DNA of 64,000 bases from an uncultured Paracoccaceae bacterium (lineage in GTDB: Bacteria; Pseudomonadota; Alphaproteobacteria; Rhodobacterales; Rhodobacteraceae): the NCBI GenBank assembly GCA_947488605.1, contig CANKZJ010000004.1:310001-374000 (forward strand). Reading direction: 5' to 3'. Positions 892 to 17,483 of this stretch are shown one piece after another. The notes beneath the pieces are model-generated. The model was given only the letters and a program-made list of their open reading frames with translations, did not search any database and was not told where the DNA came from. A program made the position numbers and the translations under genes. Positions within the stretch are counted from its first letter, which is position 1; each line of letters starts with the position of its first letter.

Positions 892-1770
892 TTAGCCTTT
901 CACAGCACCAGCGGTCAGACCGGATACGATCTGTTTTTGGAAGAAAATAATCATCACGAAAAGCGGCGCTGTGACAGAGACAACAGCCGCAACTGCAAAC
1001 ATCACGTTACCCTTAGTTTGGGTGGTTCCAAGGAAGCTGACAAGTTTTGGTACCATCGTTTGATTTTCCTTGCTCAGTAGCAGCGTGGTTACCGCAAAGT
1101 CGTTGTAGGCCAGCAGAAAGCTAAACAGCCCCGTCGTAATCACACCCGGCCACATGACGGGAATAATGACATGCCGGAAGGCCTGAAAGCGGGTACAGCC
1201 GTCAACCATGGCGCTTTCGTCCAGATCCTTGGGGATGTTCTTGAAGAAAGCGTGCAGCATCCACAGCGTGAAGGGTTGGTTGATAGCAACCAGCACGATG
1301 ATCGTGGTGCTGAGATGCCCCCAAAGGTTCCATTCAAAGAATGGCAGCAAGTAGCCAGAGACTAGCGTGATTGGCGGCATTGCACGGAACATCAGCGCGA
1401 ACAGCAAGAACCAAAACGCATAGCGGTAAGTGGATCGCGACAGCGCGTAGCCGCCAAGCGTGCCGCAGGTCAGCGAAATTGTCACGACACAGACACACAC
1501 GATTAAGGTGTTCAGGGCCGCTCGCCAGAACTCTTCTTGGATCCATGCACCATAGTACCCGTCACCGGTAAAGCTCCCGCCGGTTTCAATGGTGGTCAGC
1601 GTGCCAAAGATGGAATTTGCCCAGTCGGCCTTGGAAAAGAAATCGCCTTCAACTTTGAACGATCCCCAAAGGGTCCAAATGAACGGAAAAGCTGCCATGA
1701 TCAGCCAGATCGCCAAGAAACTATAGGCGACGACTTGGGCGGGGGGTGAAAGGCGCGTGGCTTTTGACAT
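892..1770 (-). CDS. ABC sugar-type permease, MalG family
   Basis: A 292-residue inner-membrane permease of the carbohydrate uptake family (CUT1, MalG-like). The start at 1768-1770 is preceded by GAGGTAG and lies four bases after the upstream permease stop; an earlier ATG at 1842 would extend deep into that gene and was rejected. About six hydrophobic segments are visible, and the cytoplasmic coupling (EAA) loop reads ESAMVDGCTRFQAFRHVIIP, which contacts the ATPase. It pairs with the MalF-like permease at 1775-2800 to form the membrane channel of the importer whose binding protein is at 2865-4094 and whose ATPase is at 4325-5371. The substrate cannot be read from the sequence. Confidence 0.9.
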   Translation of the reverse strand: MSKATRLSPPAQVVAYSFLAIWLIMAAFPFIWTLWGSFKVEGDFFSKADWANSIFGTLTTIETGGSFTGDGYYGAWIQEEFWRAALNTLIVCVCVVTISLTCGTLGGYALSRSTYRYAFWFLLFALMFRAMPPITLVSGYLLPFFEWNLWGHLSTTIIVLVAINQPFTLWMLHAFFKNIPKDLDESAMVDGCTRFQAFRHVIIPVMWPGVITTGLFSFLLAYNDFAVTTLLLSKENQTMVPKLVSFLGTTQTKGNVMFAVAAVVSVTAPLFVMIIFFQKQIVSGLTAGAVKG

Positions 1771-1774
1771 GTGA

Positions 1775-2800
1775 CTACCTCGGTGCGCCAAAGTCGCGCC
1801 AAGTGCGCACAAGGACGGGGGACAACAGGATCGCAACGCCAATGATCGTCAAGACAGACGTGGCCGCAGCAGAGGACAACAAGCGCGTCTCACCACCAAG
1901 ATCGTTAAAGATCGCATAAGACAATGAGGTCGCATGCGCCTGTGCGCTAAAGCTGACGATGGGTTCAAAGACGCGGAAATTGTCCATCAGCTGGATCAGA
2001 GCGATAAACGTAGTCAGCGGCACCAGATGCGGGATGATCACATAGCGAATGCGCTGGGCACGGGTGGCACCGTCGATCATGGCCGCTTCAAGCGTGTCAG
2101 TGTTCACGGTCTGCAAGCCAGCGTAATAGACGATGAATGCAAATGGCGCGGACGACCAGATGCCGTAAACCATCAACATAATCCACATCAGCGGGGTCGA
2201 AGCTTTGACCGACAGGTTCGGATCATCAGCCAGCCATTGCAGAGCGGTGCCAAGCACCCCACGGGCATCAACCATCCAGAACAGGACGAGCGCGCCTACG
2301 ATCGGCGTGACGATCATCGGCAAAAGCGACAGGAAGATTGTCGGACCGCGCATCGCACGCGCCACCGCATTGACGCCGATTGCAATGAAAAAGCCAAGGA
2401 TGATCGTCAGCGGCGTGACGACAGCGGTGTAGGTCAGGGTAAATGCCATCGCGTCGTAGAAGGGCAGGTTCATCAACGATCCTGCAAAGTCGCGCATACT
2501 GACGGAACTGGCCCAGGCCTCGCCGACTTCGGAAAAGGCAAGGTGGTTGCGATCTTTGTAGATATCCAGACCGGCGAACTGGCCCAGCGGTTCGGCCTCG
2601 CGCAAGGCGACCGTGGCTTCGCTATCGACAGAGGTATCGGTGGTGCAACCAAAGGGGCCGCAATTCTCTACTTCGATAATGACTTGATCATGGGCCTGAT
2701 ACAGCGATTGGGTCACCACCGACACAATCGGAAAGGCGATAAAAAGCAGCATCATCAATGACGAGGGTAGGACAAACCAAAAGAAAGATGAGTGTTTCAT
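1775..2800 (-). CDS. ABC sugar-type permease, MalF family, with periplasmic insertion
   Basis: A 341-residue MalF-type permease. An N-terminal membrane segment (about residues 8-30) is followed by a polar insertion (about residues 35-105) before the remaining membrane segments. The insertion carries two close cysteines (NCGPFGC, residues 47 and 52) that could form a periplasmic disulfide. The EAA loop is EAAMIDGATRAQRIRYVIIP. The gene lies between the binding protein and the second permease on the leftward transcript, with an 11-bp stem hairpin upstream (2828-2855) that may lower its expression relative to the binding protein. Assignment to the CUT1 family is secure; the meaning of the insertion is inference. 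Confidence 0.9.
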   Translation of the reverse strand: MKHSSFFWFVLPSSLMMLLFIAFPIVSVVTQSLYQAHDQVIIEVENCGPFGCTTDTSVDSEATVALREAEPLGQFAGLDIYKDRNHLAFSEVGEAWASSVSMRDFAGSLMNLPFYDAMAFTLTYTAVVTPLTIILGFFIAIGVNAVARAMRGPTIFLSLLPMIVTPIVGALVLFWMVDARGVLGTALQWLADDPNLSVKASTPLMWIMLMVYGIWSSAPFAFIVYYAGLQTVNTDTLEAAMIDGATRAQRIRYVIIPHLVPLTTFIALIQLMDNFRVFEPIVSFSAQAHATSLSYAIFNDLGGETRLLSSAAATSVLTIIGVAILLSPVLVRTWRDFGAPR

Positions 2801-2864: not shown

Positions 2865-4094
2865 TTACTGAAGGAAGCCTTTTTCAGTCGCAGCAGCCGT
2901 ATATGCGGCCTCAATATCTGCTAAAGTCTGCTCGGCACTCTCGTTGCCTTGCAAAAAGTCTGCGATGTTATCGCCCAGCGCTGTGTGCAGCAGGCCCTGG
3001 AATGGACGCATTGGGTAAGGCTGGGATCTGGCCGCAACAGACGCCAGAACGCCTTCGTTGACCGGGGCCGCCTCGAAACCGTCCATCAACCAAACGGCTT
3101 GGCTCATGGTCTCGTCATTCAAGATGTCGGACGATACACCTGCAGCCATCGCTTGGAATGTTGCTGCGGCATCTGCGTCGCTGACGTTCTTGGCCACGGT
3201 CCAGCCGTCCCACCACAATGTGGTTGCCGGTGTGCCGCTGCCGCCAACGGTCAACGGGCCAGAAACCATTGTGTTTTCATAGACTTCAGGTGCAGCACCT
3301 TCATCGTCCATCAAAACACCGGTGCGGCTGCCCCACATATTCATCAATGCGACGTTGCCCGCTTCCCACTCAGCAGATGTTGCGTTGCTGTCGTGGGTCA
3401 GGAAGTCAGGGTTCATATAAGCAGTCAACGCCTTCATCATTTCGAGCGCTTCAACACCTTGGGCGTTATTGATGCTAACCTCGGCTGTGCCGGGCTTAAA
3501 GAACTCGCCGCCTGTACCGATGTACATGTTGGTGAATTCCTGCGCGAGGTTCCATCCAGCCGCATAGGCACCGCCCACGGGGTTTTCCATGATACCAGCG
3601 GCACGAATTGCTTCGGCTGCTGCAAGCACTTCTTCGTAGGACGTCGGTACATCCAGACCGACCTGCTCAAGCACATCGCGACGATAGACGAGGTGCTGTG
3701 CGTTCGCCATGAAGGCAACAGCCATGACCTGCCCATCAACAGTAATCAATTGCTGTTGTGGGATGTCCTGACCGTATTCAGCAACCAGGTCATCCAGCGG
3801 ACGGATCACGTCTTCGTTGATCAGCGCAACGATAGAAGAGTTCGCAACAATCGCGGTTGTGTACTCGGCGGGGTTGCCGGACATGCCCGCGACGTTCAGC
3901 GTCTGGTGGTCTGCCGTCAGGTTGGACGAGAAATCGATGCCTTTACATGCGCCAGCTGCTGCGGCGACAGTTTGGATTGCGGGGAATTCGTTGCCGATGA
4001 TGCTGACACGACCGTCAGCTTCACATGCCAAAGCGCCAGTTGCAGTAAGCGCCGCAACTGCGGTGCCGAGCATAACATTTTTCCAAATTTTCAT
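2865..4094 (-). CDS. ABC transporter substrate-binding protein (family 1, sugar type)
   Basis: A 409-residue periplasmic binding protein. The start at 4092-4094 is chosen because GGGAGA lies just upstream and a clear signal peptide follows (MKIWKNVM... ATGALA), with cleavage probably before the cysteine of ACEADG. An upstream in-frame ATG at 4304 would add 70 non-signal residues across the operator region and was rejected. Two early cysteines in the mature protein (CEADG and GACKGID) may pair. It is the first gene of the leftward transcript. The ligand is unknown; neighbours suggest a small hydroxylated molecule rather than a polysaccharide. Expression is probably controlled by the LacI protein at 8789-9793 through the operator at 4173-4188. 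Confidence 0.9.
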   Translation of the reverse strand: MKIWKNVMLGTAVAALTATGALACEADGRVSIIGNEFPAIQTVAAAAGACKGIDFSSNLTADHQTLNVAGMSGNPAEYTTAIVANSSIVALINEDVIRPLDDLVAEYGQDIPQQQLITVDGQVMAVAFMANAQHLVYRRDVLEQVGLDVPTSYEEVLAAAEAIRAAGIMENPVGGAYAAGWNLAQEFTNMYIGTGGEFFKPGTAEVSINNAQGVEALEMMKALTAYMNPDFLTHDSNATSAEWEAGNVALMNMWGSRTGVLMDDEGAAPEVYENTMVSGPLTVGGSGTPATTLWWDGWTVAKNVSDADAAATFQAMAAGVSSDILNDETMSQAVWLMDGFEAAPVNEGVLASVAARSQPYPMRPFQGLLHTALGDNIADFLQGNESAEQTLADIEAAYTAAATEKGFLQ

Positions 4095-4172: not shown

Positions 4173-4188
4173 TTGCATACGTTTGCAA
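4173..4188. promoter_or_regulatory. LacI-type operator, site 1
   Basis: TTGCATACGTTTGCAA is a 16-bp near-palindrome with a central CG, as in LacI/PurR-family operators. It lies 79-94 bases upstream of the binding-protein start and is the exact reverse complement of site 2 (4299-4314). Centre-to-centre distance to site 2 is 126 bp. The likely ligand is the LacI-family regulator encoded at 8789-9793; binding is inferred, not shown. Confidence 0.85.
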
Positions 4189-4298: not shown

Positions 4299-4314
4299 TT
4301 GCAAACGTATGCAA
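4299..4314. promoter_or_regulatory. LacI-type operator, site 2
   Basis: TTGCAAACGTATGCAA, the exact reverse complement of the site at 4173-4188. It ends ten bases before the ATPase start (4325) and abuts the AGGGG ribosome-binding sequence, so a bound repressor would block elongation or initiation of the rightward transcript. The 126-bp spacing between centres is close to twelve helical turns at 10.5 bp, which would put both sites on the same face of the helix and favour looping. Confidence 0.85.
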
Positions 4315-4324: not shown

Positions 4325-5371
4325 ATGGCCGAAATTCAGCTTCGCAGTGTATCCAAACGGTGGGGATCGTTTGTTGGCGTTCAAAGCTTTGATCTGACAA
4401 TTGCCGATCAAGAGTTTCTCGTTTTGTTGGGACCATCTGGCTGCGGCAAGACCACGACCATGCGGATGATCGCAGGTCTTGAGGATGTCACGGACGGCGA
4501 TATCTTGGTGGACGGCAAACGGATCAACGACCTCGAACCCAAAGATCGTGACGTGGCGATGGTGTTTCAAAGCTACGCGCTTTACCCAAACCTTAACGTC
4601 TACGAGAACATCCGCTTTCCATTAAAAGTCCGCGGAATTCCACAAGCTGAACATGATGAGCGCGTCATGCGTGCCTCTGCCATGGTGGAGTTAGATGAAT
4701 TTCTGCACCGCAAACCTGCCGAACTCTCGGGCGGGCAACGCCAGCGTGTGGCACTTGCCCGCGCGATCGTCCGCGAGCCCAATGTGTTCTTGATGGACGA
4801 GCCGCTGTCGAACCTTGATGCCAAGTTGCGCGTGTCCACCCGCGCACAGATCAAAAACCTGAGCCACGAACTCAAGGTTACAACGATCTACGTCACCCAC
4901 GACCAGATTGAGGCGATGACACTTGCCGACCGTGTCGTTGTCATGAGCAAAGGTGTGGTCCAGCAGGTTGGAACGCCCACAGAAATTTACGATAATCCGG
5001 CTAATACTTTTGTCGCGGGTTTCATCGGCTCCCCGGCCATGAACCTTGTTGACGGTGAAATCGCAGACGGCACGTTTACCGCAAAAGATCTGTCAATCAG
5101 TGGCCTTCCAACATCGCATAATGGCCCCGTCACGCTGGGTTTTCGCGCCGAAGATGCCAGCGTTGCCGCAGGGCATGCCGAACTGAACTCAACCGTCTAT
5201 TCGCTCGAACTCTTGGGTGAGGCGACAATGGTTACGATGCGCGTAGGCGGCACAATCGTGTCGGTCAAATCCAGCAAAGAGTACCGGGTTGAAATAGGCG
5301 ATCCGGTCCACGCCAGTATCCCCGCCAGCATCTGCCATCTGTTCGATCTCAAAACAGGCGAGCGCATCTAA
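4325..5371 (+). CDS. ABC importer ATPase, MalK/UgpC type
   Basis: A 348-residue ATP-binding subunit that powers the importer encoded on the divergent strand. The start at 4325 is preceded by AGGGG; an upstream ATG at 4268 would run through the operator. Visible motifs are Walker A (GPSGCGKTT, residues 36-44), signature LSGGQRQRVALARA, Walker B VFLMDEPLSNLDA and the H-loop in YVTHDQ. A C-terminal MalK-type regulatory (TOBE/OB) domain follows after about residue 235, with the typical LGFRAEDA segment. It is the first gene of the rightward transcript, so the importer is only complete when both divergent transcripts are made. Confidence 0.92.
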   Translation: MAEIQLRSVSKRWGSFVGVQSFDLTIADQEFLVLLGPSGCGKTTTMRMIAGLEDVTDGDILVDGKRINDLEPKDRDVAMVFQSYALYPNLNVYENIRFPLKVRGIPQAEHDERVMRASAMVELDEFLHRKPAELSGGQRQRVALARAIVREPNVFLMDEPLSNLDAKLRVSTRAQIKNLSHELKVTTIYVTHDQIEAMTLADRVVVMSKGVVQQVGTPTEIYDNPANTFVAGFIGSPAMNLVDGEIADGTFTAKDLSISGLPTSHNGPVTLGFRAEDASVAAGHAELNSTVYSLELLGEATMVTMRVGGTIVSVKSSKEYRVEIGDPVHASIPASICHLFDLKTGERI

Positions 5372-5374: not shown

Positions 5375-5473
5375 ATGGCCAGCAGCGCAACATATGAACC
5401 CACCCACGCCAACGCGCCCTTCATGATGATCGTTCATCTTGCCGGGCGAAGCATCGCAAAGGACGCCGCATGA
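5375..5473 (+). CDS. Candidate 32-residue small ORF, translationally coupled
   Basis: An ATG-started frame (MASSATYEPTHANAPFMMIV...) of 32 residues begins three bases after the ATPase stop and ends in an ATGA overlap with the next gene at 5470. It therefore fills the only gap between these two genes. There is no strong ribosome-binding site and no recognisable domain. It may be a real microprotein, a coupling leader, or chance. Confidence 0.35.
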   Translation: MASSATYEPTHANAPFMMIVHLAGRSIAKDAA

Positions 5474-5961
5474 CGCGCGACGCAACATCACAAGCCTCTC
5501 TGGACGCCGTTAAGGCAATGGAGCAAGGCCTGGCCAACAACGAAATGGATATGCTGAAGTATTTCACCGAAAGCTTCACATGGCGCGGCAATCAAGGCTG
5601 CGGCACCAAAAACGGCGTTCAGGCTTTTCAACGTAACTGGCAATGGCCCTTGCGCGCGGCCTTTACCGACCGGGACTACAAAACAGATCAGTTTCTCGCG
5701 GACGGTGAATGGGCCGCCTGTTTCGGTCACATCGAAGGCACGCACAGCGGTACTTTCATGGGCATCGCCGCCACCGGAAAGCGGGTCAAAATCCCCTATA
5801 TGGATTTTTGGCGTATTGAGGACGGACGTATCGCAGACAACCCTGTCTCGGTCGATTTCGCATCTGTCATGATGCAACTGGGCGTCGATGTGTTCGGTGG
5901 CGAAGGCTGGGAAAAATACGATAGCGGCGAGGCCGAACCGCCCAAACCGGAAGGGTACTGA
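5470..5961 (+). CDS. SnoaL-like (NTF2-fold) ester-cyclase family protein
   Basis: A 163-residue single-domain SnoaL-like protein. It has the fold's usual pattern: an N-terminal helix (MEQGLANNEMDMLKYF), a TWRG strand region, and a late strand pair containing IPYMDFWRIEDGRI, where the last part matches the common W-x-x-x-x-G-K/R-I signature of ester-cyclase/SnoaL proteins. Length fits the family. It lies between the ATPase and the HpsN-like dehydrogenase, three bases before the latter, and belongs to the same transcript. Together with the proteins at 1-888 and 9790-10773 it gives five SnoaL-like units in one regulon. The substrate and reaction are unknown. Confidence 0.82.
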   Translation: MTRDATSQASLDAVKAMEQGLANNEMDMLKYFTESFTWRGNQGCGTKNGVQAFQRNWQWPLRAAFTDRDYKTDQFLADGEWAACFGHIEGTHSGTFMGIAATGKRVKIPYMDFWRIEDGRIADNPVSVDFASVMMQLGVDVFGGEGWEKYDSGEAEPPKPEGY

Positions 5962-5964: not shown

Positions 5965-7275
5965 ATGGCAATCACGTACCTCAAATCCGGCAAGCCCGAA
6001 GCGGAACGCGCCCAAGACGACGCCAAAGTCCGGGGCATTGTTGAAGCCACGTTGGGCGATATCGAAAAGCGCGGCGACGCAGCGGTTCGTGATCTGTCCG
6101 AAAAGTTCGACAAGTATTCGCCGCCAAATTTCCGTCTAAGCCCGTCCGAGATCGAAGCAGCCATGTCCAAAGTCGCACCCCGCGACATGGAAGACATCAA
6201 ATTCGCCCAAGACCAAATCCGCAATTTCGCCCAGGCGCAGCGCGCATCAATGACGGATATCGAAGTCGAAACCATGCCTGGCGTCATCTTGGGGCACAAA
6301 AACATCCCCGTACAATCGGTCGGTTGCTACGTGCCAGGCGGCAAGTTTCCAATGGTCGCCTCCGCGCATATGTCAGTTCTCACTGCGTCGGTCGCCAAAG
6401 TCCCCCGCATCGTGGCCTCTGCGCCGCCGCAAAACGGCGCACCACATCCGGCCATTGTGGCCGCAATGCACATGGGCGGCGCACATGAAATCTATGTCCT
6501 TGGCGGTATGCAGGCAGTGGGCGCGATGGCACTGGGTACCCAAACGGTCGACCCCGTGCATATGATCGTCGGCCCCGGCAACGCTTTTGTCGCTGAAGCG
6601 AAGCGACAGCTTTTCGGGCGCGTCGGGATCGACCTTTTCGCAGGGCCGACCGAGACGATGGTGATTGCTGATAACACAGTCGACGCTGAACTCTGCGCCA
6701 CCGACCTGCTGGGTCAGGCTGAACATGGCTACAACTCCCCGGCTGTTCTGCTCACCAACTCCGAAAAACTTGCCAAAGAAACGCTGGCTGAAATCGACCG
6801 CATCCTCGAAATCTTGCCTACCGCTGAAACCGCGCGGACCTCATGGCAGGACTACGGCGAAGTCATTCTCTGCGACACCTACGATGAAATGCTCGCTGTC
6901 GCAGACGACATCGCGTCCGAGCACGTCCAAGTTATGACCGACCGTGACGACTGGTTTTTGGAAAACATGACCTGCTACGGCGCGCTCTTCCTTGGACCAC
7001 GCACGAACGTAGCAAACGGCGATAAAGTCATCGGAACGAACCATACCCTGCCCACCAAAAAGGCTGGACGCTACACTGGCGGCCTTTGGGTTGGTAAATT
7101 CCTTAAAACCCACAGCTACCAAAAGATTCTCACAAACGAAGCGGCAACATTGGTTGGCGAATACGGCTCGCGCCTTTGCATGCTCGAAGGCTTTGTCGGA
7201 CATGCTGAGCAATGTAACATCCGTGTCCGGCGTTACGGTGGCAAAAACGTGGGCTACGGCACAGCAGCTGAATGA
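5965..7275 (+). CDS. Histidinol-dehydrogenase-family polyol dehydrogenase, HpsN-like
   Basis: A 436-residue NAD-dependent dehydrogenase of the HisD superfamily. The residues that bind zinc and act in catalysis in HisD are all present: Q251 and H254 (LGQAEHG), E319-H320 (ASEHVQV), D353 (NGDKVIG) and H413 (EGFVGHAEQ). HisD and the sulfopropanediol dehydrogenase HpsN both oxidise a primary alcohol to a carboxylate in two steps. The context of a sugar-type ABC importer, an SDR and a LacI regulator, with no histidine genes, argues for a catabolic HpsN-like enzyme on an imported alcohol rather than histidine synthesis. A GGAAGGG sequence lies about ten bases before the start. The substrate is not established. 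Confidence 0.85.
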
Positions 7276-7350: not shown

Positions 7351-8028
7351 ATGCAAACCACCCGCCCAAAAAGACGCAAACCACAAAGCTACAGTGGCCT
7401 CGAAGACCTTGGGCGGATCCGTCTGTCGCAGCATTTCTTCATGCGGGATTTCCTCTATTCCGAGATCGGCAATTTCCACGGCATCCCAAATATTCCCGAA
7501 GACCCGACTTTGGCGATCATGGCTGGCGAAAAACTCTGTCAGGAACTGCTGGATCCATTGACCGAAACCTTCGGTCCCGTCGCTGTACGCTCCGCCTACC
7601 GCTCACCATCGCTGAACCACTTTGGTGCCACACAAGCAAAACCCCAACGCTGCGCGCGCAATGAGGCGAACTATGCAGGCCATATCTGGGACATTCGTGA
7701 CAGCAAGGGTCGCATGGGTGCTTGCGCCAGCATCGTCGTGCCATGGTTCGCTGATCAGTTCGATCAGGGCCGCGACTGGCGCGATCTGGCATGGTGGATC
7801 CACGATCATCTGCCGTACCACGCAATGTATTTCTTTCCCAAACTCGCAGCCTTCAACCTGACATGGCGCGAAGACCCGGACCGCACCATCCACAGCTATG
7901 TAGCCCCGAAAGGTACACTCCAGGGTGTGGGCGAAAATCCGGCAGAGGATGACACAGCGCGCGCTGCCCGTTATGCAGACTTTCCACCCTTTCGGGGCAT
8001 CACTTATCCAGCTGGGCGCAGACTATGA
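7351..8028 (+). CDS. Peptidase M15-like (D,D-carboxypeptidase fold) protein
   Basis: A 225-residue protein with the pattern of peptidase M15-type zinc enzymes: FGPVAVRSAYRSPSLN matches the GxxxVxSxYRSxxxN strand, followed by the expected metal region (NYAGHIWD) and a late WWIHDHLPYH segment. In canonical members a S-x-H-x-x-G-x-A-x-D motif supplies His and Asp; here the aligned His position appears to be Asn, so metal binding may be altered or lost. No signal peptide is visible, so it should be cytoplasmic, which is odd for a cell-wall enzyme. It overlaps the next gene by four bases, so it belongs to the catabolic operon. It may hydrolyse an amide or peptide-like bond in the substrate, or may not be an enzyme. 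Confidence 0.6.
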   Translation: MQTTRPKRRKPQSYSGLEDLGRIRLSQHFFMRDFLYSEIGNFHGIPNIPEDPTLAIMAGEKLCQELLDPLTETFGPVAVRSAYRSPSLNHFGATQAKPQRCARNEANYAGHIWDIRDSKGRMGACASIVVPWFADQFDQGRDWRDLAWWIHDHLPYHAMYFFPKLAAFNLTWREDPDRTIHSYVAPKGTLQGVGENPAEDDTARAARYADFPPFRGITYPAGRRL

Positions 8029-8789
8029 CACTTCCAAAAACCCCTTCCTTCCGCCTTGACGGCAAACGGGCGCTTATCGCTGGTGGTTCATCGGGGATCG
8101 GACTGGCGTGTGCGGTCGCATTGGCCGAAGCCGGGGCCGACGTCACACTCTCTGCCCGCAACGCCGCCAAACTAGAGGCCGTTGTGCAAGACATGCGCGC
8201 CGCGGGCTTCCGCGCCAATGCCATCCAAATGGACGTCACCAACATTGCTGCAACGGAAACCATCGTCGCCGAACACGGCCCCTTCGACGTGCTTGTCAAC
8301 TCTGCGGGCCTTGCCATCCATGCGCCAGCAATCGAGACGCAAGAAGCCGATTTCGATGCGGTCTCGGACATCAATTTCAAAGGCGCGTATTTCCTCACGC
8401 GTGCTGTCGCCAAGGGTTTGCTCGCCGCCAATAAACCCGGCAGTCTGATCAACATTACCAGCCAAATGGCCCATGTCGGCGGCATTGATCGTGCGGTCTA
8501 TTGTGGCACGAAATTCGCCGTCGAAGGCTTTACCAAAGCGATGGCAATCGAATGGGGCAAGCAGGCTATCCGGGTTAATACGATCTGCCCCACCTTCATC
8601 CGCACGCCGCTTACCGAACAAACCTTCAACAATCCTAAGCGGGTCGCGTGGATCATGGATAAGATCAAACTGGGCCGCGTCGGCGAAGTGACCGACATGA
8701 TGGGCCCCGTGGTTTACCTCGCCTCCGACGCATCCGCCTTGATGACCGGTACGCATATGATCATCGACGGAGGCTGGACAGCAGACTGA
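8025..8789 (+). CDS. Short-chain dehydrogenase/reductase (SDR)
   Basis: A 254-residue classical SDR. The cofactor motif is GGSSGIGLA near the N-terminus, NSAGLA follows at the expected place, and the catalytic Ser-Tyr-Lys set is in NITSQMAHVGG ... AVYCGTKFAVEG. The Arg after the second strand (LSARN) suggests NADP preference. It overlaps the M15-like gene by four bases and the LacI gene by one base. With the HpsN-like enzyme it probably provides a second alcohol/ketone oxidation in the same pathway. The exact substrate is unknown. Confidence 0.9.
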   Translation: MTLPKTPSFRLDGKRALIAGGSSGIGLACAVALAEAGADVTLSARNAAKLEAVVQDMRAAGFRANAIQMDVTNIAATETIVAEHGPFDVLVNSAGLAIHAPAIETQEADFDAVSDINFKGAYFLTRAVAKGLLAANKPGSLINITSQMAHVGGIDRAVYCGTKFAVEGFTKAMAIEWGKQAIRVNTICPTFIRTPLTEQTFNNPKRVAWIMDKIKLGRVGEVTDMMGPVVYLASDASALMTGTHMIIDGGWTAD

Positions 8790-9793
8790 TGGTCAAAATC
8801 ACTTCTCTCCAAGTCGCAGAACGTGCGGGCGTGAGCCAATCAGCGGTCAGCCGGGTGTTTACACCCGGTGCATCGGCCAGCGCCAAGACCATCGAAAAGG
8901 TGCGCAAAGCTGCGGCTGAGCTGGGCTATCGCCCCAATATGATGGCGCGCGCGATGATCACTGGCAAAAGCCGCATCATCGGGTTGGTCGTGGCCTATCT
9001 GGACAACCAATTCTACCCGCTGGCGCTGCAACTGCTATCCAATGCCTTGCAGGAAAAAGGCTATCATATCCTTGTCTTCACCGCCTCCAACAGCCAAGGC
9101 GCGTCCGAAGAGGTGATGCAGGAACTGCTCGACTACCAAGTCGACGGGATCATCACCGCCTCGGTGGGCATGACGAATGACCTGACCCAACGCTGCGCCG
9201 CCGCTGGCATCCCTGTCGTGATGTTCAACCGCGGACAAGAAGGCGAGGCCATCTCATCGGTCACGTCTGCCAACGTCAAAGGCGGGCGAGAGGTTGCGGA
9301 ATTCCTGTTGTCTTGCGGGCACACGTCCATCGGACATATCAGCGGCTGGACTGGATCTTCGACCGGGCGCGACCGGCAGGCAGGGTTCTGCGAGGTCCTC
9401 GCCCAGCATGGGATCACACCTCAGATCATCGATGGTATGTATGAACGCGAAACTGCCGCCGCCGCCGCGCAGTCCATGATGGATAGCAGCACACCACCCG
9501 ATGCTATCTTTGTTGGCAATGACCACATGGCCTTTGCCGTACTGGATACGCTGCGCCAGGAAATGGGGCTGAGCGTACCAGACGATGTGGCGATCGTGGG
9601 CTATGATGATGTCCCGCTCGCCGCATGGCCGGCTTACAACCTGACAACCATGCGTCAACCAGTCAACCGCATGGTCGAAGCGACGGTTGATGCGCTTGTC
9701 AGCCGCATCGACGACCCGACACTGCCCGCACAACTGATTGAAATAGACAGCCCGCTGATCCAGCGCGGCACCACCAAAGGACCAACGACATGA
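8789..9793 (+). CDS. LacI-family transcriptional regulator of the cluster
   Basis: A 334-residue repressor. The N-terminal helix-turn-helix reads SLQVAERAGVSQSAVSRVF, followed by the hinge helix YRPNMMARAM; the residue equivalent to the minor-groove leucine of LacI/PurR seems to be methionine. Residues from about 60 on form the periplasmic-binding-protein-like effector domain (IIGLVVAYLDNQFY ... DAIFVGNDHMAF). Its start overlaps the SDR stop by one base, and its end overlaps the following SnoaL gene by four. It most likely binds the two operators in the divergent spacer (4173-4188 and 4299-4314) and responds to the imported molecule or an early intermediate. Being inside the rightward operon it would regulate itself. 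Confidence 0.92.
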   Translation: MVKITSLQVAERAGVSQSAVSRVFTPGASASAKTIEKVRKAAAELGYRPNMMARAMITGKSRIIGLVVAYLDNQFYPLALQLLSNALQEKGYHILVFTASNSQGASEEVMQELLDYQVDGIITASVGMTNDLTQRCAAAGIPVVMFNRGQEGEAISSVTSANVKGGREVAEFLLSCGHTSIGHISGWTGSSTGRDRQAGFCEVLAQHGITPQIIDGMYERETAAAAAQSMMDSSTPPDAIFVGNDHMAFAVLDTLRQEMGLSVPDDVAIVGYDDVPLAAWPAYNLTTMRQPVNRMVEATVDALVSRIDDPTLPAQLIEIDSPLIQRGTTKGPTT

Positions 9794-10773
9794 AGGGCTT
9801 TTCCAACCGCTGGAAAGATTTCCCCGACTACATCATCGGGATTACCAAAGAGATTTGGGAGGACCGGGGCGTCGGCACGCTGAACCACTATTACGCACCA
9901 GACATCCCCGTGCGTTCGCCGATGGGGATCAGCATGGGCAATCAAGATGTGATCGCCGCGACCATGGCCACAATCAACGAATTCCCGGACCGTGAACTCT
10001 TGGGTGAAGATGTGATCTGGTCGGGTGATGAAAACACCGGGTACCTATCATCTCACCGCTTATTGACCAAAGCTACCCACACGCGTGACGGACAATTCGG
10101 GCCCGCGACAGGCAAACACTGGCAGGTCTACGTGATCGCTGATTGTGCTGCCAAGGAAGACACAATCTACGATGAATGGCTGGTCCGCGACTACGGCGGC
10201 ATTGTGCGGCAATTGGGGATGGACCCGCGCGATTACGCGGCCGACTTGATTGCACGCGAAGGCGGTCCCGAACAAGCGAACAAACCCTTCACGCCCGCGA
10301 TTGATGTCGACGGCGGCTATCATGGGACGGGAAATGACAACCCGTGGGGGCAACGCTACGCCGACACACTCACGCGCATTATGCACGACGATTTCACACA
10401 TATCCGCGACAGCTATGACCGGGCGTGCATCGGCGAATACGCTGGCGCGAAACGGGCAGTGGGTTGGGATGGTATCCTTGAATTCTGGGTGGGCCTGCGG
10501 TCATCCTTCCCGCACGCAGAGTTCAAGATCCACCACCAGATCGGCATGGACGCCGACATGCTGTCACCGCGTGCCGCGATCCGCTGGTCGCTGGATGGCA
10601 AGCACGAAGGCTGGGGCAGCTTCGGTGAACCGACCGGAGCTGATGTACACATCATGGGCATGTGCCACGCAGAGTTCGGACCCTACGGCCCTGACGGTGT
10701 CGGACTGCGCCGCGAATTCGCGCTCTACGATGAAATCGCGATCTGGAAACAGATTTTGATGGCGCAGGGCTAA
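9790..10773 (+). CDS. Tandem SnoaL-like (NTF2-fold) protein
   Basis: A 327-residue protein that seems to contain two SnoaL-like domains, about 1-150 (NHYYAPDIPVRSPMGISMGN) and about 180-327 (MHDDFTHIRDSYDRA ... GWDGILEFWVGLRSSFPHAEF). It overlaps the LacI gene by four bases and lies three bases before the RidA gene. Its two-domain layout matches the truncated protein at 1-888. SnoaL-fold enzymes catalyse aldol, cyclisation, hydration or hydrolysis steps without a cofactor, so a role on a pathway intermediate is plausible but unproven. Confidence 0.8.
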   Translation: MKGFSNRWKDFPDYIIGITKEIWEDRGVGTLNHYYAPDIPVRSPMGISMGNQDVIAATMATINEFPDRELLGEDVIWSGDENTGYLSSHRLLTKATHTRDGQFGPATGKHWQVYVIADCAAKEDTIYDEWLVRDYGGIVRQLGMDPRDYAADLIAREGGPEQANKPFTPAIDVDGGYHGTGNDNPWGQRYADTLTRIMHDDFTHIRDSYDRACIGEYAGAKRAVGWDGILEFWVGLRSSFPHAEFKIHHQIGMDADMLSPRAAIRWSLDGKHEGWGSFGEPTGADVHIMGMCHAEFGPYGPDGVGLRREFALYDEIAIWKQILMAQG

Positions 10774-10776
10774 CCC

Positions 10777-11172
10777 ATGAAAAATCGCGGCATCATACCG
10801 CCCGGCATGGAAAGCTACGTTGATGACTGGAAGATGTCGCCAGGGATCTTTTCCGGTGATTTTCTGTTCTTGACTGGCATGACCGGAGCAGGACCTGACG
10901 GCACAGTTGACCCTGACGCGGAAACCCAAATCAGGCTAGCCTTCAGCCGTGCGAACAGCGTCTTAGAACATGCTGGTTTAAGCTTTGCCGACGTCGTGGA
11001 AATGACCAGCTATCACGTTGGCATTCGCGATCATATTACCGAGTTTCGCCGAATTCGGGACGCGTTTGTAGGCGAACCTTATCCAGCATGGACGGCAATC
11101 GAAGTGGCGGGCTTCGTCACCCCCGGTACGATCTGCGAACTCCGCATCATTGCCAAAAGAGGAACGACTTGA
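10777..11172 (+). CDS. RidA/YjgF family protein (enamine/imine deaminase type)
   Basis: A 131-residue RidA-family protein. The family's key arginine is present in the C-terminal CELRIIAKR segment, and the core strand pattern (FLFLTGMTGAGPDGTVD) is typical. RidA proteins hydrolyse reactive enamines and imines to ketones and ammonia, so its place inside this operon suggests that the pathway substrate or an intermediate carries nitrogen. It overlaps the cupin start by one base (TGATG). Family members without deaminase activity exist, so the reaction is inference. Confidence 0.88.
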   Translation: MKNRGIIPPGMESYVDDWKMSPGIFSGDFLFLTGMTGAGPDGTVDPDAETQIRLAFSRANSVLEHAGLSFADVVEMTSYHVGIRDHITEFRRIRDAFVGEPYPAWTAIEVAGFVTPGTICELRIIAKRGTT

Positions 11173-12137
11173 TGACCCCACTTGAGATGGAAAACCGCAT
11201 CGTCCGCTATGGTAATCTGCAACCTTGCAAGACTGCGTTCATCGACGCCCACACACCCGGCTCCGATCAAAAGGAAAACTTTACGATCATCGGGGGCGGG
11301 GTCTCTGAAAGTCCCGACCAGCACGTCCATATCGCCATCCCGCATGGGTTCAACATCGGGGCCGCCGGGCAACCTCCGCGCGTGCGCAATTCTTTGCACG
11401 ATCATCACACAGCAGAGGTGTTTTTTGTCCTCTCCGGCACATGGCGGTTCTTTTGGGGGCGTTGGGGGGACGCCGGCGAAGTCGTGCTGCAAGAAGGCGA
11501 CATCATCAACATTCCAACAGGTATCTTCCGCGGGTTCGAGAACATTGGCACCGATTACGGGATGATCATGGCAGTGCTTGGTGGCGATGACGCAGGCGGC
11601 GGTGTGATGTGGGCACCTCAAGTCATTGAAGACGCGGCCGAGCATGGGTTGATCTTGGGCGAAGATGGCAAGCTTTACGACACAAAACGTCAGCAAGAAT
11701 TACCAGATGGCATAGCGCCCATGCCCTTGATGTCCGAAGCTGAACTGGCCAAGCGCCCGGAGCCAAGCACCGCCGAAGTTCTGCCCAATCACGTCGCGCG
11801 TTATTGGGACCTTTATGCACTGGCGGATAAGACGCCCGCCAAGGTGATCGGTGAAAATGGCATTCTGCGTGACAAACCGGGGTTCGAGGTGGATTTCGTC
11901 ACGCGTGGCTCGTCGACGGACAGCAAACACAGCCACCCAAACCCATCCGTCTTGATGCCCATGCGCGGGCATTGGAAAGTGACGTGGGAAGGCGGTGCTG
12001 CAACGCTGGCACCCGGTGACACAATGTCGGTTCCTGAAAATCTGGACCACAGCGTCGTGCCGTCGATGACGGGAGAAGCCAGCCTTTACCACATCGTCGC
12101 AACGGGTGATCCTGCAGGCGCTACCTGGAAAGGTTAA
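11172..12137 (+). CDS. Bicupin protein, gentisate-dioxygenase-like architecture
   Basis: A 321-residue two-cupin protein. The start at 11172 overlaps the RidA stop; the longer frame from 11088 would run inside RidA. Cupin 1 has H76, H78 and E82 (HDHHTAE), but the late His of the second motif is replaced (PTGIFRGFEN). Cupin 2 has H253 and H255 (HSH) and H293 (LDHS) but no Glu in the first motif. So one domain has a 2-His/1-Glu set and the other a 3-His set. Bicupins of this shape include ring-cleaving dioxygenases, decarboxylases and isomerases. A metal-dependent step on a pathway intermediate is likely; which one is open. Confidence 0.75.
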   Translation: MTPLEMENRIVRYGNLQPCKTAFIDAHTPGSDQKENFTIIGGGVSESPDQHVHIAIPHGFNIGAAGQPPRVRNSLHDHHTAEVFFVLSGTWRFFWGRWGDAGEVVLQEGDIINIPTGIFRGFENIGTDYGMIMAVLGGDDAGGGVMWAPQVIEDAAEHGLILGEDGKLYDTKRQQELPDGIAPMPLMSEAELAKRPEPSTAEVLPNHVARYWDLYALADKTPAKVIGENGILRDKPGFEVDFVTRGSSTDSKHSHPNPSVLMPMRGHWKVTWEGGAATLAPGDTMSVPENLDHSVVPSMTGEASLYHIVATGDPAGATWKG

Positions 12138-12216
12138 CCACACGACGTAAGACAGCCGTACATACAGCATGTGCACAGGGTGTGTACGCAAAGCATACGA
12201 AGAAAAGGAAGATGAA

Positions 12217-13341
12217 ATGTCGAAAGTCTTAACAACCCATGTGGGCTCTTTGCCACGCACACAAGAAGTCGTGGATTTCATCTTTGCCCGCGAAAACGGC
12301 ACGGCCTATGACGCGGATGCTTTTGATGCTGCGATGACAGCGGCGGTTTCAGAAACCGTGCGAAAACAAGTAGATGCAGGCATCGACATTGTCAGCGACG
12401 GCGAGACGTCCAAGATCAGCTACGCCACTTATGTCAAAGACCGCTACACTGGTTTCGACGGGGATAGCCCGCGCAATGCACCTGCTGACCTTAAGCAATT
12501 TCCCAGCTTTCTCAAACGCTTGGCGGATGACGGCGGCACGCCCCAATACGCCCGCCCGATGTGCGTAGGCGAGGTGAAGTCCAAAGGGCAGGGTGAGTTG
12601 GAAAAAGACATCGCGAACCTTAAGGCAGCAATGGCTGAACATGGCGCTGAACAGGGTTTCATGAATGCCGCCTCACCTGGCGTTATCTCGTTGTTTTTGC
12701 AGAACGATTACTACAAATCCCGCGAAGCGTATCTGGCCGCATTGGCCGATACCATGAAGACCGAATACGAGACAATTGTGGCCTCTGGCCTTGATCTCCA
12801 ACTTGATTGCCCAGACCTCGCGCTGTCGCGTCATATGTTGTTTAACGATTTGTCAGATGATGAATTCCTAAAAATCGCAGCGAGCCATGTCGAGGCGCTG
12901 AACCACGCGTTATCCGATGTGCCCGCCGAAAAAGTACGCGTCCATATCTGCTGGGGTAATTATGAGGGTCCACACGTCTGCGACATTCCGATGTCGAAGA
13001 TGTTTGATACATTAATGTCCACCAAATCGCAGTATGTGTTGTTTGAAACATCAAACCCGCGTCATGGGCACGAATGGTCTGTTTTTCGTGACCGCGCGAA
13101 AGATATCCCTGATAACAAGGTGTTAGTACCCGGCGTTGTCGATACGACAACCAATTTCGTGGAACATCCTGATCTTGTTGCCGAACGGGTCGGGCGTTTT
13201 GTGAATATCGTTGGTGCAGACCGCGTCATTGCTGGATCTGATTGCGGATTTGGTACTTTCGCGGGCTTCGGCGCGGTTGATCCTGAAATCGCCTATGCGA
13301 AATTGGGTGCGCTGGCCGAAGGGGCTGCACGGGCCAGCTAA
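12217..13341 (+). CDS. MetE-core (cobalamin-independent methionine synthase C-domain) methyltransferase
   Basis: A 374-residue stand-alone protein equal to the C-terminal catalytic half of MetE. All four zinc ligands are visible: H243 and C245 (VHICWG), E277 (FETSN) and C343 (SDCGFGT). The N-terminal THVGSLPR segment is typical. The start at 12217 is preceded by AAGGA; the frame opening at 12169 lies in the spacer. Stand-alone core proteins can methylate thiols from donors other than methyl-folate, or act in alkyl transfer as in epoxyalkane:CoM transferase. As the last gene of the catabolic run, 79 bases after the cupin, it may remove a methyl or alkyl group from the substrate. It could also have its own promoter. 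Confidence 0.82.
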   Translation: MSKVLTTHVGSLPRTQEVVDFIFARENGTAYDADAFDAAMTAAVSETVRKQVDAGIDIVSDGETSKISYATYVKDRYTGFDGDSPRNAPADLKQFPSFLKRLADDGGTPQYARPMCVGEVKSKGQGELEKDIANLKAAMAEHGAEQGFMNAASPGVISLFLQNDYYKSREAYLAALADTMKTEYETIVASGLDLQLDCPDLALSRHMLFNDLSDDEFLKIAASHVEALNHALSDVPAEKVRVHICWGNYEGPHVCDIPMSKMFDTLMSTKSQYVLFETSNPRHGHEWSVFRDRAKDIPDNKVLVPGVVDTTTNFVEHPDLVAERVGRFVNIVGADRVIAGSDCGFGTFAGFGAVDPEIAYAKLGALAEGAARAS

Positions 13342-13399
13342 ACCAGTTGGACTCCGGGCTGATTTGAACCATGTAGCGTGGTGAGAAAAGGAATGCCTC

Positions 13400-14815
13400 A
13401 TGCTCAACTCTGTGACGCCTGCTTTTGAAGAAAAACTGCGGCAGTTATTGCCTGAAGCGGCATTCAAAGACGACACTGTACCTTATCTGTCTGAACCGCG
13501 TGGGCGCTGGGCAGGACAGGGACTTGTAGTTGCTCCGGGTAGCACTGAAGAGGTCGCAGAAGTGGTGAAGGCTTGTGCCGATGCATCTGTTGGAATTGTG
13601 CCATATAGCGGCGGCACGGGTCTTGTCGGTGGCCAACTCATGCAAGAAGGGCCAACTCCTGTTGTGCTCTCGCTGGAGCGGATGAACAAAATCCGCGCTG
13701 TCTATGCGTCCGAAAACGTATTGGTCTGCGACGCAGGCGTGATCCTTGCCGATATTCATAAGGCGGCCGAAGACGTGGGCCGATTGTTCCCGTTATCGCT
13801 TGCCTCGGAAGGGTCGGCGCGGATCGGTGGGCTGCTGTCAACGAACGCGGGTGGCGTGAACGTGCTGCGCTATGGCAACGCGCGGGCACAGTGTTTGGGG
13901 CTGGAGGTCGTGCGACCTGACGGATCAATCTGGCATGGGCTGACGCGGTTGCGCAAAGATAATACAGGATACGATCTGCGCAATCTGATGATTGGAGCGG
14001 AAGGGACTTTGGGCATTATCACAGCGGCTGCGCTGAAACTTGCACCGCGCCCTGTTGGCATCGGGGCGGCAATGATGGCGGTGAGTTCACCATCGGCTGC
14101 ATTGAAATTGCTTGCTATGGCAGGTGAACGTGTCGGCGAAAGCATTTCTGCATTCGAGATCATGCATCGCGCGGGTTTCGATTTTCTGGCCGAAGTTGGG
14201 CCAGACATAAAACAACCATTTGGCGAGATACCAGAATGGTGTGTCTTGATTGATGTGGGGCTTCCCGCCGGACTGGACCCTCAGAACGCCTTGGAGGGCC
14301 TCTTTGAAGCGGCATTCGATGCGGGTCTCGTGACAGACGGTGTCATCGCGCAAAGCCACGCCCAAAGGGATGCGTTTTGGCATATCCGGGAAAGCATCCC
14401 CGAGGCCAACCGCCGGATCGGATCAATCAGCTCACATGATATCTCGGTGCCGCTGAGCGCCGCCGCTGCGTTTATCGCCCGTGGCAAACAGGCGTTAGCC
14501 GAAGTAGGTGAATTTAGGATCAATTGCTTTGGCCACCTGGGCGACGGGAACCTGCATTACAATGTTTTTCCCATGCAAGGCCACAATCGTGCGGACTATG
14601 AGGTGGAACGCCCGCAGGTTAAACGCGTTGTCCATGATTTGGTTCATGAGATGGAAGGGTCCGTCAGTGCGGAACATGGGATTGGGCGTTTGAAAGTGGC
14701 CGATCTGGAAAAATACGGCGATCCAGCAAAGCTCGCAATGCTGCGCGCCATTAAGGATGCACTTGACCCCAAGGGTATTATGAACCCCGGGGCTGTTTTG
14801 TCACAACGCCCATAA
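13400..14815 (+). CDS. FAD-linked oxidase, GlcD / D-2-hydroxyacid dehydrogenase type
   Basis: A 471-residue flavoprotein of the VAO/PCMH family. The FAD-binding PYSGGTGLVGGQ motif lies near residue 73, and the C-terminal FAD-oxidase domain has GHLGDGNLHYNVF and SAEHGIGRLK, typical of D-2-hydroxyglutarate and D-lactate/glycolate dehydrogenases. AAGGA lies ten bases before the start. It oxidises a D-2-hydroxyacid to the 2-oxoacid and passes electrons to a carrier. It follows the MetE-like gene by 58 bases in the same direction and could be read with the catabolic operon, but it is also a common stand-alone housekeeping gene. Confidence 0.88.
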   Translation: MLNSVTPAFEEKLRQLLPEAAFKDDTVPYLSEPRGRWAGQGLVVAPGSTEEVAEVVKACADASVGIVPYSGGTGLVGGQLMQEGPTPVVLSLERMNKIRAVYASENVLVCDAGVILADIHKAAEDVGRLFPLSLASEGSARIGGLLSTNAGGVNVLRYGNARAQCLGLEVVRPDGSIWHGLTRLRKDNTGYDLRNLMIGAEGTLGIITAAALKLAPRPVGIGAAMMAVSSPSAALKLLAMAGERVGESISAFEIMHRAGFDFLAEVGPDIKQPFGEIPEWCVLIDVGLPAGLDPQNALEGLFEAAFDAGLVTDGVIAQSHAQRDAFWHIRESIPEANRRIGSISSHDISVPLSAAAAFIARGKQALAEVGEFRINCFGHLGDGNLHYNVFPMQGHNRADYEVERPQVKRVVHDLVHEMEGSVSAEHGIGRLKVADLEKYGDPAKLAMLRAIKDALDPKGIMNPGAVLSQRP

Positions 14816-14889: not shown

Positions 14890-15906
14890 GTGGAAACGCG
14901 GTTTGTTCCGGCGCGGTTTTTTCTCATCGCGATCGTGCCGATTATTATTTTTGCGCAAGAGGCCGTAATTTCGGGTCAATTCCTGTCTGCTGATTTGCAG
15001 GTGCCTGTCGGCATCCTGCAAGAAGATCGCATCATACTCGAAACTGCGGGGCGGTTCCGTTTCTTAGGTGCGACATGGTTTTTTGCGGCCCTCGCGGGAT
15101 TGGTTTTCGCGCTTGCCGTGCGTGATCTTTGCCAGCCTTTGCGCAAAGAAACCCGGCTGGCGGGTGCGCTTGTTTTGCTCGTGATCTTCCTGCTCGCGAT
15201 TTCACCAACCATTAATTACATGCAAGAACCCGACGCGCTGCGCAATTATCACAAACTAGGTGGGGATCTTTTTGAGGCGGCATTGGGTCAAGGAACATTG
15301 CCCGGCTGCACTGTGCCAACAGATCGTTGGCTATTGGGGGTTTGCGGTGATGTGCCTGTGATTTCGCTTTTGAACAGGATGATGGATGTCACCAATGTCT
15401 TTGCGGGTCTTGGTGTTGGCGGGCTGATCGTCGGTATGATCCTTTGTTTGCAAGAGTGCGCTGACACAAAACTGGAGGCCAAGGCCGTGCAGCTTGAGCG
15501 CAATGTTTTGCGCATGCGCCGGCAACTTTATTTGTCAGGTTTGGTTCTGTCAGTGGGTATTTTCTTTGCCACCACCTGGATGCGCTGGCCTTTGCCGATG
15601 GTCGTGGGGGATGCAAGTGATGCTTACGACGCTGTCATAGCGGCGTCGCTGCTCTATACGGGGCTGTATTTCTCTCTTCTCATACTCAGCTTTTACCTGC
15701 CTGTTGCCATCATTCTTGATAGTCGCAAGAAAGCCTTGGCTGAAATGGCGGCTGGGCATGACACGCTCACGGAACACAAAGACCGCGAAGAATGGTTGAA
15801 ATCCCGTGGCCTGCACGCTGACCCTACCGATTTCTTGAAAGCGGGCTTCGCTTTGGTTGCGCCAATCCTTGCGGCTTACGCGGGCAGCTTTCCGACCCTT
15901 TTCTAG
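14890..15906 (+). CDS. Multi-pass membrane protein of unknown function
   Basis: A 338-residue hydrophobic protein starting with GTG, preceded by AAGGGGG. About seven membrane segments can be seen, roughly at residues 8-28, 59-78, 88-108, 165-190, 212-230, 248-275 and 317-336. There is a polar loop with a cysteine pair ([15 protein letters not shown], about residues 137-151) and a cytoplasmic charged stretch near residue 190 ([20 protein letters not shown]) that could form a short coiled coil. No known family is recognised. It is convergent with apt and shares four bases (CTAG) with its stop. Confidence 0.75.
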
Positions 15907-16433
15907 TCTCCCTCAAAGCTGCACAGCGCATGCACATTCATGCCCAACGCCTCAAGCTTGGTGCGTCCGCCGATATCGGGCAGGTCAATGACAAATGCGC
16001 AACCGATGACTTCTGCGCCCATACGTTCGATCAGTTTGATCCCGGCTTCGGCGGTGCCCCCCGTTGCGAGCAAATCATCCACAAGCAAGACCTTTTCGCC
16101 GGGTTGCAGTGCATCATCATGCACTTCCATCGTGGCGGTGCCGTATTCCAGCGTGTAATCCTGCTCGATCGTTTTGCCGGGCAGTTTGCCTTTCTTACGG
16201 ATTGGCACAAAGCCCAAGGAAAGCTGATGGGCAATGGCACCGCCCAAGATGAAACCGCGCGCCTCTAGCCCCACGACCTTATCAATCGCGAGCCCCGCGT
16301 AGGGATGCAAAAGCTGATCAATCGCCATGCGAAATCCGCGCGCATCGGTAAAGAGGGTCGTGACATCGCGGAACATGATCCCTTCATGCGGAAAATCAGG
16401 GATCGTGCGGATGTAGTCTTGGACAGTTTTCAT
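15903..16433 (-). CDS. apt: Adenine phosphoribosyltransferase
   Basis: A 176-residue cytoplasmic enzyme converting adenine and PRPP to AMP. The PRPP-binding loop [17 protein letters not shown] and the N-terminal [19 protein letters not shown], which is highly characteristic of Apt, are both present; length is usual. It lies 12 bases downstream of mtnP on the same strand, which makes functional sense: MtnP releases adenine from methylthioadenosine and Apt recycles it. Its stop overlaps the stop of the convergent membrane-protein gene by four bases. Confidence 0.96.
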
Positions 16434-16445
16434 TCGGGGGGCTTT

Positions 16446-17312: not shown

Positions 17313-17483
17313 GGTCTGCCTCGTCAAATCTCCAACGCCGACACTGAAACGGTTTCTTGTAAAAGTGAAGGCTTCGTTCAGTGCCAATGCGGCAACATCG
17401 CCAATTCGGGCAATCAAGAGGGGTGACAAGCGGCAGATGCTCGGTTAGTGGGCGTTCAAGTTCCCCTTAGACAGGATATCTCT

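Follow-up and report, generated by a model that had tools for sequence, protein, structure and literature searches.

A stand-alone MetE-like protein with a predicted zinc site, encoded in a LacI-containing catabolic operon of the Rhodobacterales

Introduction

The methionine synthase MetE of E. coli holds homocysteine through S433, E484 and D599, as described in PMC7857596, a source that also gives the hosts of MesA, MesB and MesC as methanogens or Wood-Ljungdahl pathway users. The C-terminal half of MetE (E. coli, T. maritima) has the same fold, zinc ligands and homocysteine triad as the MetE-like protein described here. MesD, which works with MesX (structure 3rpd), is likewise a single barrel with the same zinc ligands and triad. 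The two are about 26% identical and form separate clades, and compared with MesD the MetE-like protein has four extra invariant histidines, a CWGNY segment and a catabolic operon with a LacI gene. Epoxyalkane:CoM transferase (EaCoMT; XecA/EtnE) shares with it the single zinc barrel, the catabolic cluster and the HxCWGN(Y/W) motif, but, unlike in EaCoMT systems, no alkene monooxygenase was recognised in the MetE-like operon. BHMT, Bmt and MtgD, in which demethylation is coupled to methionine formation, would be functional parallels; BHMT belongs to another sequence family, PF02574, which has five matches in the genome analysed here.

Marine core-MetE homologs with the four zinc-site residues have been reported from several cosmopolitan bacteria, their function being called “questionable” (PNAS 2025, PMC12478193). 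As presented there, the doubt rests on P. inhibens, which has a homolog and yet becomes auxotrophic for methionine once its split synthase is mutated; the auxotrophy of the mtgCDE mutant is cited, and methionine synthesis under cobalamin limitation is deemed plausible for these homologs. The P. inhibens gene PGA1_c27430, termed “Mes-like”, has been studied for its effects on the DMSP lag phase (FEBS J 2025, PMC12366255). According to that report, DMSP lag shortening persists in the Mes-like deletion, and a bmt deletion with Mes-like intact is nearly methionine-dependent, growing weakly without methionine. A second synthase is given as one possible source of this residual growth, with Mes-like as the candidate; the accessible portion of the paper mentions neither the operon of PGA1_c27430 nor a substrate.

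We describe a related gene in 64,000 nucleotides of an uncultured Paracoccaceae bacterium, the whole stretch of DNA analysed being referred to as the window.

Results and discussion

Gene, zinc site and fold

The frame at 12217-13341 on the plus strand is open over 374 amino acids, and the opposite strand contains several stops in frame 1. Mechanical ORF calling starts the gene at 12169; the ATG at 12217 was preferred, with AAGGA immediately 5' of it and with the earliest possible start of 15 homologs corresponding to it. Pfam recognises Meth_synt_2 (PF01717) as the sole domain (47.5 bits, cut-off 21), and NCBIfam methionine-synthase models score far under their cut-offs (best 92.4 vs 406 bits). 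The folate-binding N-terminal half of canonical MetE is absent from the protein, which by Pfam consists of the catalytic domain alone, in agreement with the stand-alone MetE core described in an earlier, sequence-only reading of this DNA.

The zinc ligands named in that reading, H243, C245, E277 and C343, were all found at these positions, and they align with H641, C643, E665 and C726 of E. coli MetE in an alignment of 112 rows. All four are kept in 85/85 close rows, while in the 14 distant rows the histidine and both cysteines are kept in 14/14 and the glutamate in 10/14. The zinc site is thus not due to chance, as its ligands are kept across close and distant rows. The glutamate is kept in 95 of 99 relatives (98 loci, as rows L030 and L154 are one gene), and the exceptions, L146-L149, group together in the tree. 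These four distant homologs have proline or alanine instead; three of them are paralogs in one genome (G084), and L147 adjoins a luciferase-like monooxygenase gene.

An AlphaFold2 model built from 48 sequences has a pLDDT of 88.3 and a pTM of 0.90, with residues 347-351, beside C343, below a pLDDT of 50. Its best structural match is MesD 3rpd (Z 35.4, rmsd 2.2, 316 aligned), followed by zinc- and homocysteine-bound T. maritima MetE, matched in its C-terminal half (1xdj; Z 33.1, rmsd 2.4, 324 aligned), to which it is 17% identical over the 324 superposed residues. Uroporphyrinogen decarboxylase, which has a related fold and different chemistry, is matched with a Z of about 21. That the protein is a stand-alone MetE-fold core with a predicted zinc site, in a clade of its own, can be stated with high confidence.

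Homocysteine site and family placement

In the alignment, the homocysteine-binding S433, E484 and D599 of E. coli MetE correspond to S11, E63 and D197, and this triad is kept in 85/85 relatives at 70% identity or above and in 14/14 at 36-56%, haloarchaea included. In EaCoMT, represented by the proteins of Nocardioides JS614, Xanthobacter Py2 and Mycolicibacterium NBB4, the serine is asparagine in all three and the glutamate is K, R and K, respectively, with the aspartate kept. A cation at the glutamate position of EaCoMT would suit the sulfonate of coenzyme M, and a glutamate would suit the amino group of homocysteine. From these three invariant residues, at the first two of which EaCoMT has N and K/R, we consider with fair confidence that the thiol acceptor would be homocysteine rather than coenzyme M.

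Four further histidines, H253, H283, H285 and H317, are invariant in 99/99 relatives and absent from the three EaCoMT, two MesD and E. coli MetE rows, which suggests that part of the conserved chemistry of the MetE-like protein is its own. The segment CWGN(Y/W) after the zinc motif is common to the MetE-like protein and 3/3 EaCoMT, where MesD has CYG and E. coli MetE has CYC. On the Nocardioides plasmid pNOCA01, a second, shortened EtnE-like copy (L045, 6611-7237) lies by a second set of CoA-transferase and CoA-ligase genes.

Phylogenetic placement, which the sequence-only reading had proposed as a check, puts the protein in its own clade outside the sampled MetE, MesD and EaCoMT sequences. 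In a careful tree of 50 rows, whose long branches make the deep order unsure, the 38-row family is one clade at 100/99 support, and in a 33-row tree with the longest rows removed the 24-row family stands at 100/100. The references in these trees were MetE, MesD and EaCoMT sequences. The AU test rejects one clade of the near orthologs with EaCoMT (p 5.4e-7) and one with six MesD-like rows (p 1.9e-6). ComA (PF02679, coenzyme M biosynthesis) has no match in the window's genome and matches 2/14 control genomes; MesX (PF08908) has no match in the window's genome and matches 2/2 positive-control plasmids and 0/14 standard controls. Membership in EaCoMT was rejected on the N/(K or R) residues, the AU test and the absence of ComA, and membership in MesD on the AU test and the absence of MesX. 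The EaCoMT-type alkyl transferase considered in the sequence-only reading is accordingly weakened, with the S/E/D triad kept and no ComA match in the genome. The MetE-like protein is real and conserved, is neither an ordinary methionine synthase nor an EaCoMT, and is a variant of the core-MetE kind.

The operon in the window

All genes from 4325 to 14815 lie on the plus strand with gaps of less than 100 bases, and no plus-strand terminator-like sites were found among them. The features are as follows; locus counts refer to the best 80 of at least 576 relatives.

892..1842, minus strand: sugar ABC permease (profile match)
1775..2800, minus strand: sugar ABC permease by its homologs in related loci, the annotated ones being sugar ABC permeases; no Pfam match at 1e-10
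2865..4094, minus strand: solute-binding protein, SBP_bac_1 (start chosen by reading)
4173..4188, no strand: LacI-type operator-like palindrome TTGCATACGTTTGCAA, divergent promoter region
4299..4314, no strand: LacI-type operator-like palindrome TTGCAAACGTATGCAA, divergent promoter region
4325..5371, plus strand: ABC transporter ATPase, UgpC/MalK type (start chosen by reading; counterpart in Ruegeria annotated ugpC)
5470..5961, plus strand: single-domain SnoaL-like protein; 49/80 loci
5965..7275, plus strand: HpsN-like dehydrogenase (HDH), histidinol dehydrogenase family; 66/80 loci
7351..8028, plus strand: 225-aa protein, no Pfam match at E up to 1; 6/80 loci
8025..8789, plus strand: SDR dehydrogenase; 70/80 loci
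8789..9793, plus strand: LacI-family regulator; 67/80 loci
9790..10773, plus strand: double SnoaL-like protein; 71/80 loci
10777..11172, plus strand: RidA-family protein; 0/80 loci
11166..12137, plus strand: bicupin (Cupin_2) directly upstream of the MetE-like gene (start chosen by reading); 69/80 loci
12217..13341, plus strand: MetE-like stand-alone zinc methyltransferase (predicted), 374 aa; Zn ligands H243, C245, E277, C343
13400..14815, plus strand: GlcD-like FAD-linked oxidase; 3/80 loci, one at only 25% identity
53391-54293, minus strand: metF
54352-55257, plus strand: MetR-like LysR gene, missing the MetR model's own cut-off (257 vs 382 bits)

With an importer, LacI regulator, HpsN-like dehydrogenase, SDR, SnoaL proteins and bicupin as neighbours, the catabolic-operon setting proposed from the sequence holds, and metF and metR, 40 kb away, are indeed not linked to the gene. 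About 2.5 kb downstream on the minus strand (15903-17318) lie phosphoribosyltransferase and MTA phosphorylase genes of methionine salvage, which show no sign of belonging to the MetE-like operon. Judged by its counterparts in related loci, the RidA, 225-aa and GlcD genes of the operon are local additions.

Conservation and dispensability of the gene

The operon counts come from a contig search, are biased to close orthologs, since they cover the best 80 of at least 576 relatives, and include 27/80 loci shorter than 21 kb where contigs end. Each neighbour took the label of its best BLAST hit (E up to 1e-10); among those labelled SDR, LacI or ATPase, a few with 20-35% identity are probably other genes. 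Further neighbours among these best 80 of at least 576 are a second double SnoaL protein (58/80), an a/b hydrolase (51/80) and RraA (46/80). Within the Rhodobacterales the MetE-like gene is nearly confined to one catabolic operon, which contains a LacI gene and also encodes a sugar-type ABC importer, an HpsN-like dehydrogenase, an SDR, SnoaL proteins, a bicupin, a PcaD-like hydrolase and an RraA aldolase. Hosts beyond the Rhodobacteraceae among the best 80 of at least 576 include SAR116, SUP05/Thioglobus, Granulosicoccus and Porticoccaceae, all of them MAGs.

The window's operon carries two of four SnoaL protein types. Operons of the L032 (1641-13228) and L174 type encode one single-domain and three double-domain SnoaL proteins, seven domains in all, an unusual load for one pathway. 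In Ruegeria AD91A a class I SAM-dependent methyltransferase gene (L032, 14382-14984) directly precedes the MetE-like gene, placing a methyl-donor user beside a putative demethylase; this gene is found in 8/80 loci (best 80 of at least 576).

In a phylum-wide sample the MetE-like gene (E up to 1e-60) was present in 26/398 genomes, 14 of them from the window's own family. The window's order was sampled with 390 genomes. The MetE-like gene is present in 161 of them at E up to 1e-40 and the HpsN-like gene in 192 at E up to 1e-180; both genes occur in 156, the MetE-like gene alone in 5, HDH alone in 36 and neither in 193. Fisher's p for this co-occurrence ignores kinship. Where coordinates were listed for both genes, they lie within 15 kb of each other in 117/125 genomes (median 6.4 kb) and further apart or on other contigs in 8/125. 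Four of the five MetE-like-only genomes were opened, and one has a shortened HDH at 88% and three have the operon at a contig end.

Loci were fetched for 20 of the 36 HDH-only genomes. Twelve are bicupin-type operons without the MetE-like gene and eight have HDH without the bicupin; tblastn (E up to 1) found no MetE-like remnant in the 20. A replacement gene in the operons lacking it was considered and rejected, as the bicupin adjoins the a/b hydrolase in 10/12 loci, the other two being L161, without a labelled hydrolase, and L165, which is cut within the bicupin. As some operons are cleanly without the gene, it is a separable module and not obligatory for the pathway. Two Litoreibacter loci have the MetE-like gene with SDR and a/b hydrolase and lack HDH, SnoaL proteins, bicupin and RraA. 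One of them (L131) has the 225-aa protein (7804-8592) with SDR, a SAM methyltransferase, the MetE-like gene and the a/b hydrolase, the rest of the operon missing.

Promoter palindromes

Two copies of one palindrome (4173 and 4299) lie between the divergent solute-binding and ATPase genes. With 1.95 LacI-type palindromes expected from shuffled sequence, the two found are unremarkable in number; what stands out is the sequence they share. Allowing two mismatches, the palindrome recurs in 15/73 related loci of at least 13 kb, mostly beside transporter or HDH starts, compared with an average of 0.5 and a maximum of 6 for shuffled palindromes, the maximum coming from a near copy of the motif. It is also found in 8/20 loci from genomes with HDH and without the MetE-like gene. 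The LacI protein of the operon may bind these palindromes and thereby regulate the operon. Neither the window nor six related loci have a cobalamin or SAM riboswitch that reaches the gathering threshold, and control by such elements was rejected.

Pathway type and substrate

The best PDB match of the HDH is (R)-DHPS dehydrogenase (382 bits vs 260 for the best histidinol dehydrogenase). The operon hydrolase resembles 3-oxoadipate enol-lactonase and an amidohydrolase of the Ruegeria operon resembles L-fuconolactonase, both below model cut-offs, and RraA has weak matches, also below cut-offs, to CHA aldolase models. The bicupin is of the quercetinase / salicylate dioxygenase / oxalate decarboxylase fold type, and a fold search returned generic bicupins only (TM about 0.5). 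The operon may encode oxidative breakdown through a sugar acid or lactone, with aldol cleavage as the last step and the SnoaL and bicupin steps unexplained; what favours such a route is the importer, the LacI regulator, the lactonase-like hydrolases and the RraA or HpcH/HpaI aldolases. Given the HpsN-like dehydrogenase, DHPS would be a guess at the substrate, although the operon shows no recognisable gene for sulfonate processing. Mycosporine-like amino acids seemed to fit at first, with a vinylogous-ester methyl and a CH2OH to oxidise, but their methyl is constant and the MetE-like gene optional; a limited literature search on this link gave nothing on point. A limited search likewise found no paper on the MetE-like operon.

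Homologs in other settings

Homologs outside this operon have mixed neighbourhoods. A GcvT-type protein and folate C1 genes lie near the homologs of the sphingomonads L033 and L034 and of L216, L217 and L219 (one alphaproteobacterial family, f13); L220 has PurU nearby, L213 an NTF2-like neighbour only, and no clear methyl-related link was seen near L214, L218 and L221-L225. As a general member of the marine operon the GcvT-type gene was rejected, a close one being present in only 2/80 loci (L111, L085; best 80 of at least 576). A Dietzia plasmid homolog occurs with two annotated 2-oxoglutarate/phytanoyl-CoA-type dioxygenases and an HD protein, none of these neighbour types was seen by three haloarchaeal plasmid homologs, and several distant homologs have nothing recognisable around them. 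The family is therefore found in several settings.

Three loci from families other than the window's (L154, L212, L215) have HDH, LacI and MetE-like genes, with an HpcH/HpaI-type aldolase in L154 and L212 and, by reading, candidate TonB-type receptors. NTF2/SnoaL-like genes adjoin MetE-like genes in the absence of the marine operon in Pseudoroseomonas (L144, 2582-4014), whose MetE-like protein groups near MesD, Sphingobium (L033, 9995-11508) and Novosphingobium (L034, 10004-11529), and the two could possibly be a functional pair.

Host methionine synthesis and the P. inhibens gene

The MetE-like protein is the only PF01717 match in the window's genome. The genome also has a split MetH with homocysteine (C1:180408), cobalamin (C1:182605) and pterin (C1:206016) domains, none of which reaches the cut-off of the full-length MetH model.

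PGA1_c27430 of P. inhibens is very probably the ortholog of the window's gene in the same operon, as judged from primer fit. Tried on 53 loci, the four outer published primers fit the layout bicupin-MetE-hydrolase-RraA, the best locus showing 14 mismatches over 83 nt; the best of 300 shuffles had 27. Primers 12 and 13, at the gene borders, matched poorly at the expected places and were excluded from the test, and primer 11 has no exact match in 394 genomes of the family. The likely ortholog in P. inhibens does not replace the split synthase, and the MetE-like gene is likely not the methionine synthase of its host.

Proposed function and alternatives

In the mechanism that we propose, the stand-alone MetE-type catalytic barrel would act as a zinc methyltransferase, its zinc holding homocysteine as the thiolate. 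A methylated substrate, activated by the family-specific histidines, would yield its methyl group to homocysteine, and methionine would leave. The methyl source would be a methylated form of the imported compound or a pathway intermediate, making the enzyme an optional entry or side step of the pathway and not the methionine synthase of the cell. Plain alkyl methyl ethers are poor methyl donors to a thiolate, and good donors would be sulfonium, quaternary ammonium, methyl ester and enol-ether methyl groups. We have moderate confidence that a methyl group would be taken from a catabolic substrate, and put at about even the chance that the protein is a zinc-thiolate demethylase that makes methionine by moving a methyl group onto homocysteine from the substrate of the operon or from an intermediate. 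More tentatively, the family may be a distinct MetE-type lineage of folate- and cobalamin-free substrate:homocysteine demethylases, the MetE-fold counterpart of BHMT, acting on a methylated sugar-like marine algal compound with the four histidines activating the donor.

Methionine, unlike an S-alkyl product, would call for no extra operon genes, which favours demethylation. Against it stand the 12/20 fetched HDH-only loci with a bicupin-type operon that lacks the gene, by which the pathway does not always need it, the two Litoreibacter loci that have the gene and lack most of the operon, the DMSP lag shortening that persists in the Mes-like deletion, the mixed neighbourhoods of distant homologs, and the four distant homologs without the glutamate ligand. 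The folate C1 genes near some homologs provide a methyl link, but would also fit a user of methyl-folate.

A thiol alkyltransferase like EaCoMT, opening an epoxide or another pathway electrophile with a thiol other than coenzyme M, is unlikely. The shared CWGN(Y/W) segment and the catabolic operon point in this direction, as does the inclusion of epoxide hydrolases among SnoaL/NTF2-fold proteins, but the serine and glutamate of the homocysteine site are kept where EaCoMT has N and K/R, the protein is only about 25% identical to EtnE, no C-S cleavage gene was recognised in the operon, and both the missing ComA match and the AU test on near orthologs argue against it. Somewhat less probable is a role as a reserve methionine synthase that is made under B12 shortage and takes its methyl from methyl-folate, methylcobalamin or a methylated carrier protein. 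It would agree with the folate C1 neighbours, with the cobalamin-limitation proposal of PMC12478193, with the residual growth of delta-bmt and its candidate second synthase (PMC12366255), and with PMC11507031, where methanotroph homologs that share less than 35% identity with EtnE are taken, untested, for probable methionine synthases. It sits poorly with LacI-type sites at the divergent promoter and the lack of a cobalamin or SAM riboswitch at gathering threshold in the window and six related loci, with the lack of a folate domain in the protein and of MesX in a genome that has a split MetH, and with P. inhibens, whose bmt mutant nearly needs methionine with the likely ortholog intact (PMC12366255) and whose mtgCDE mutant is auxotrophic (cited in PMC12478193). 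Least probable of these is that the zinc-thiolate barrel serves another substrate step, such as a thiol-assisted lyase or isomerase, with no net methyl transfer; the four family-only histidines, invariant in 99/99 relatives, and the structural match to uroporphyrinogen decarboxylase at Z about 21 would suit such chemistry, but the conserved homocysteine triad and the C1-folate genes near some homologs would not.

Conclusion

The probable demethylase role would account for the fact that such a gene does not serve as an ordinary methionine synthase. For the “questionable” marine core-MetE homologs, the operon context offers a concrete alternative in which the gene would serve a substrate-controlled catabolic pathway. 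As a P. inhibens deletion strain has been published (PMC12366255), the idea is directly testable given an inducing compound. The gene is present in 161/390 sampled genomes of the window's order.
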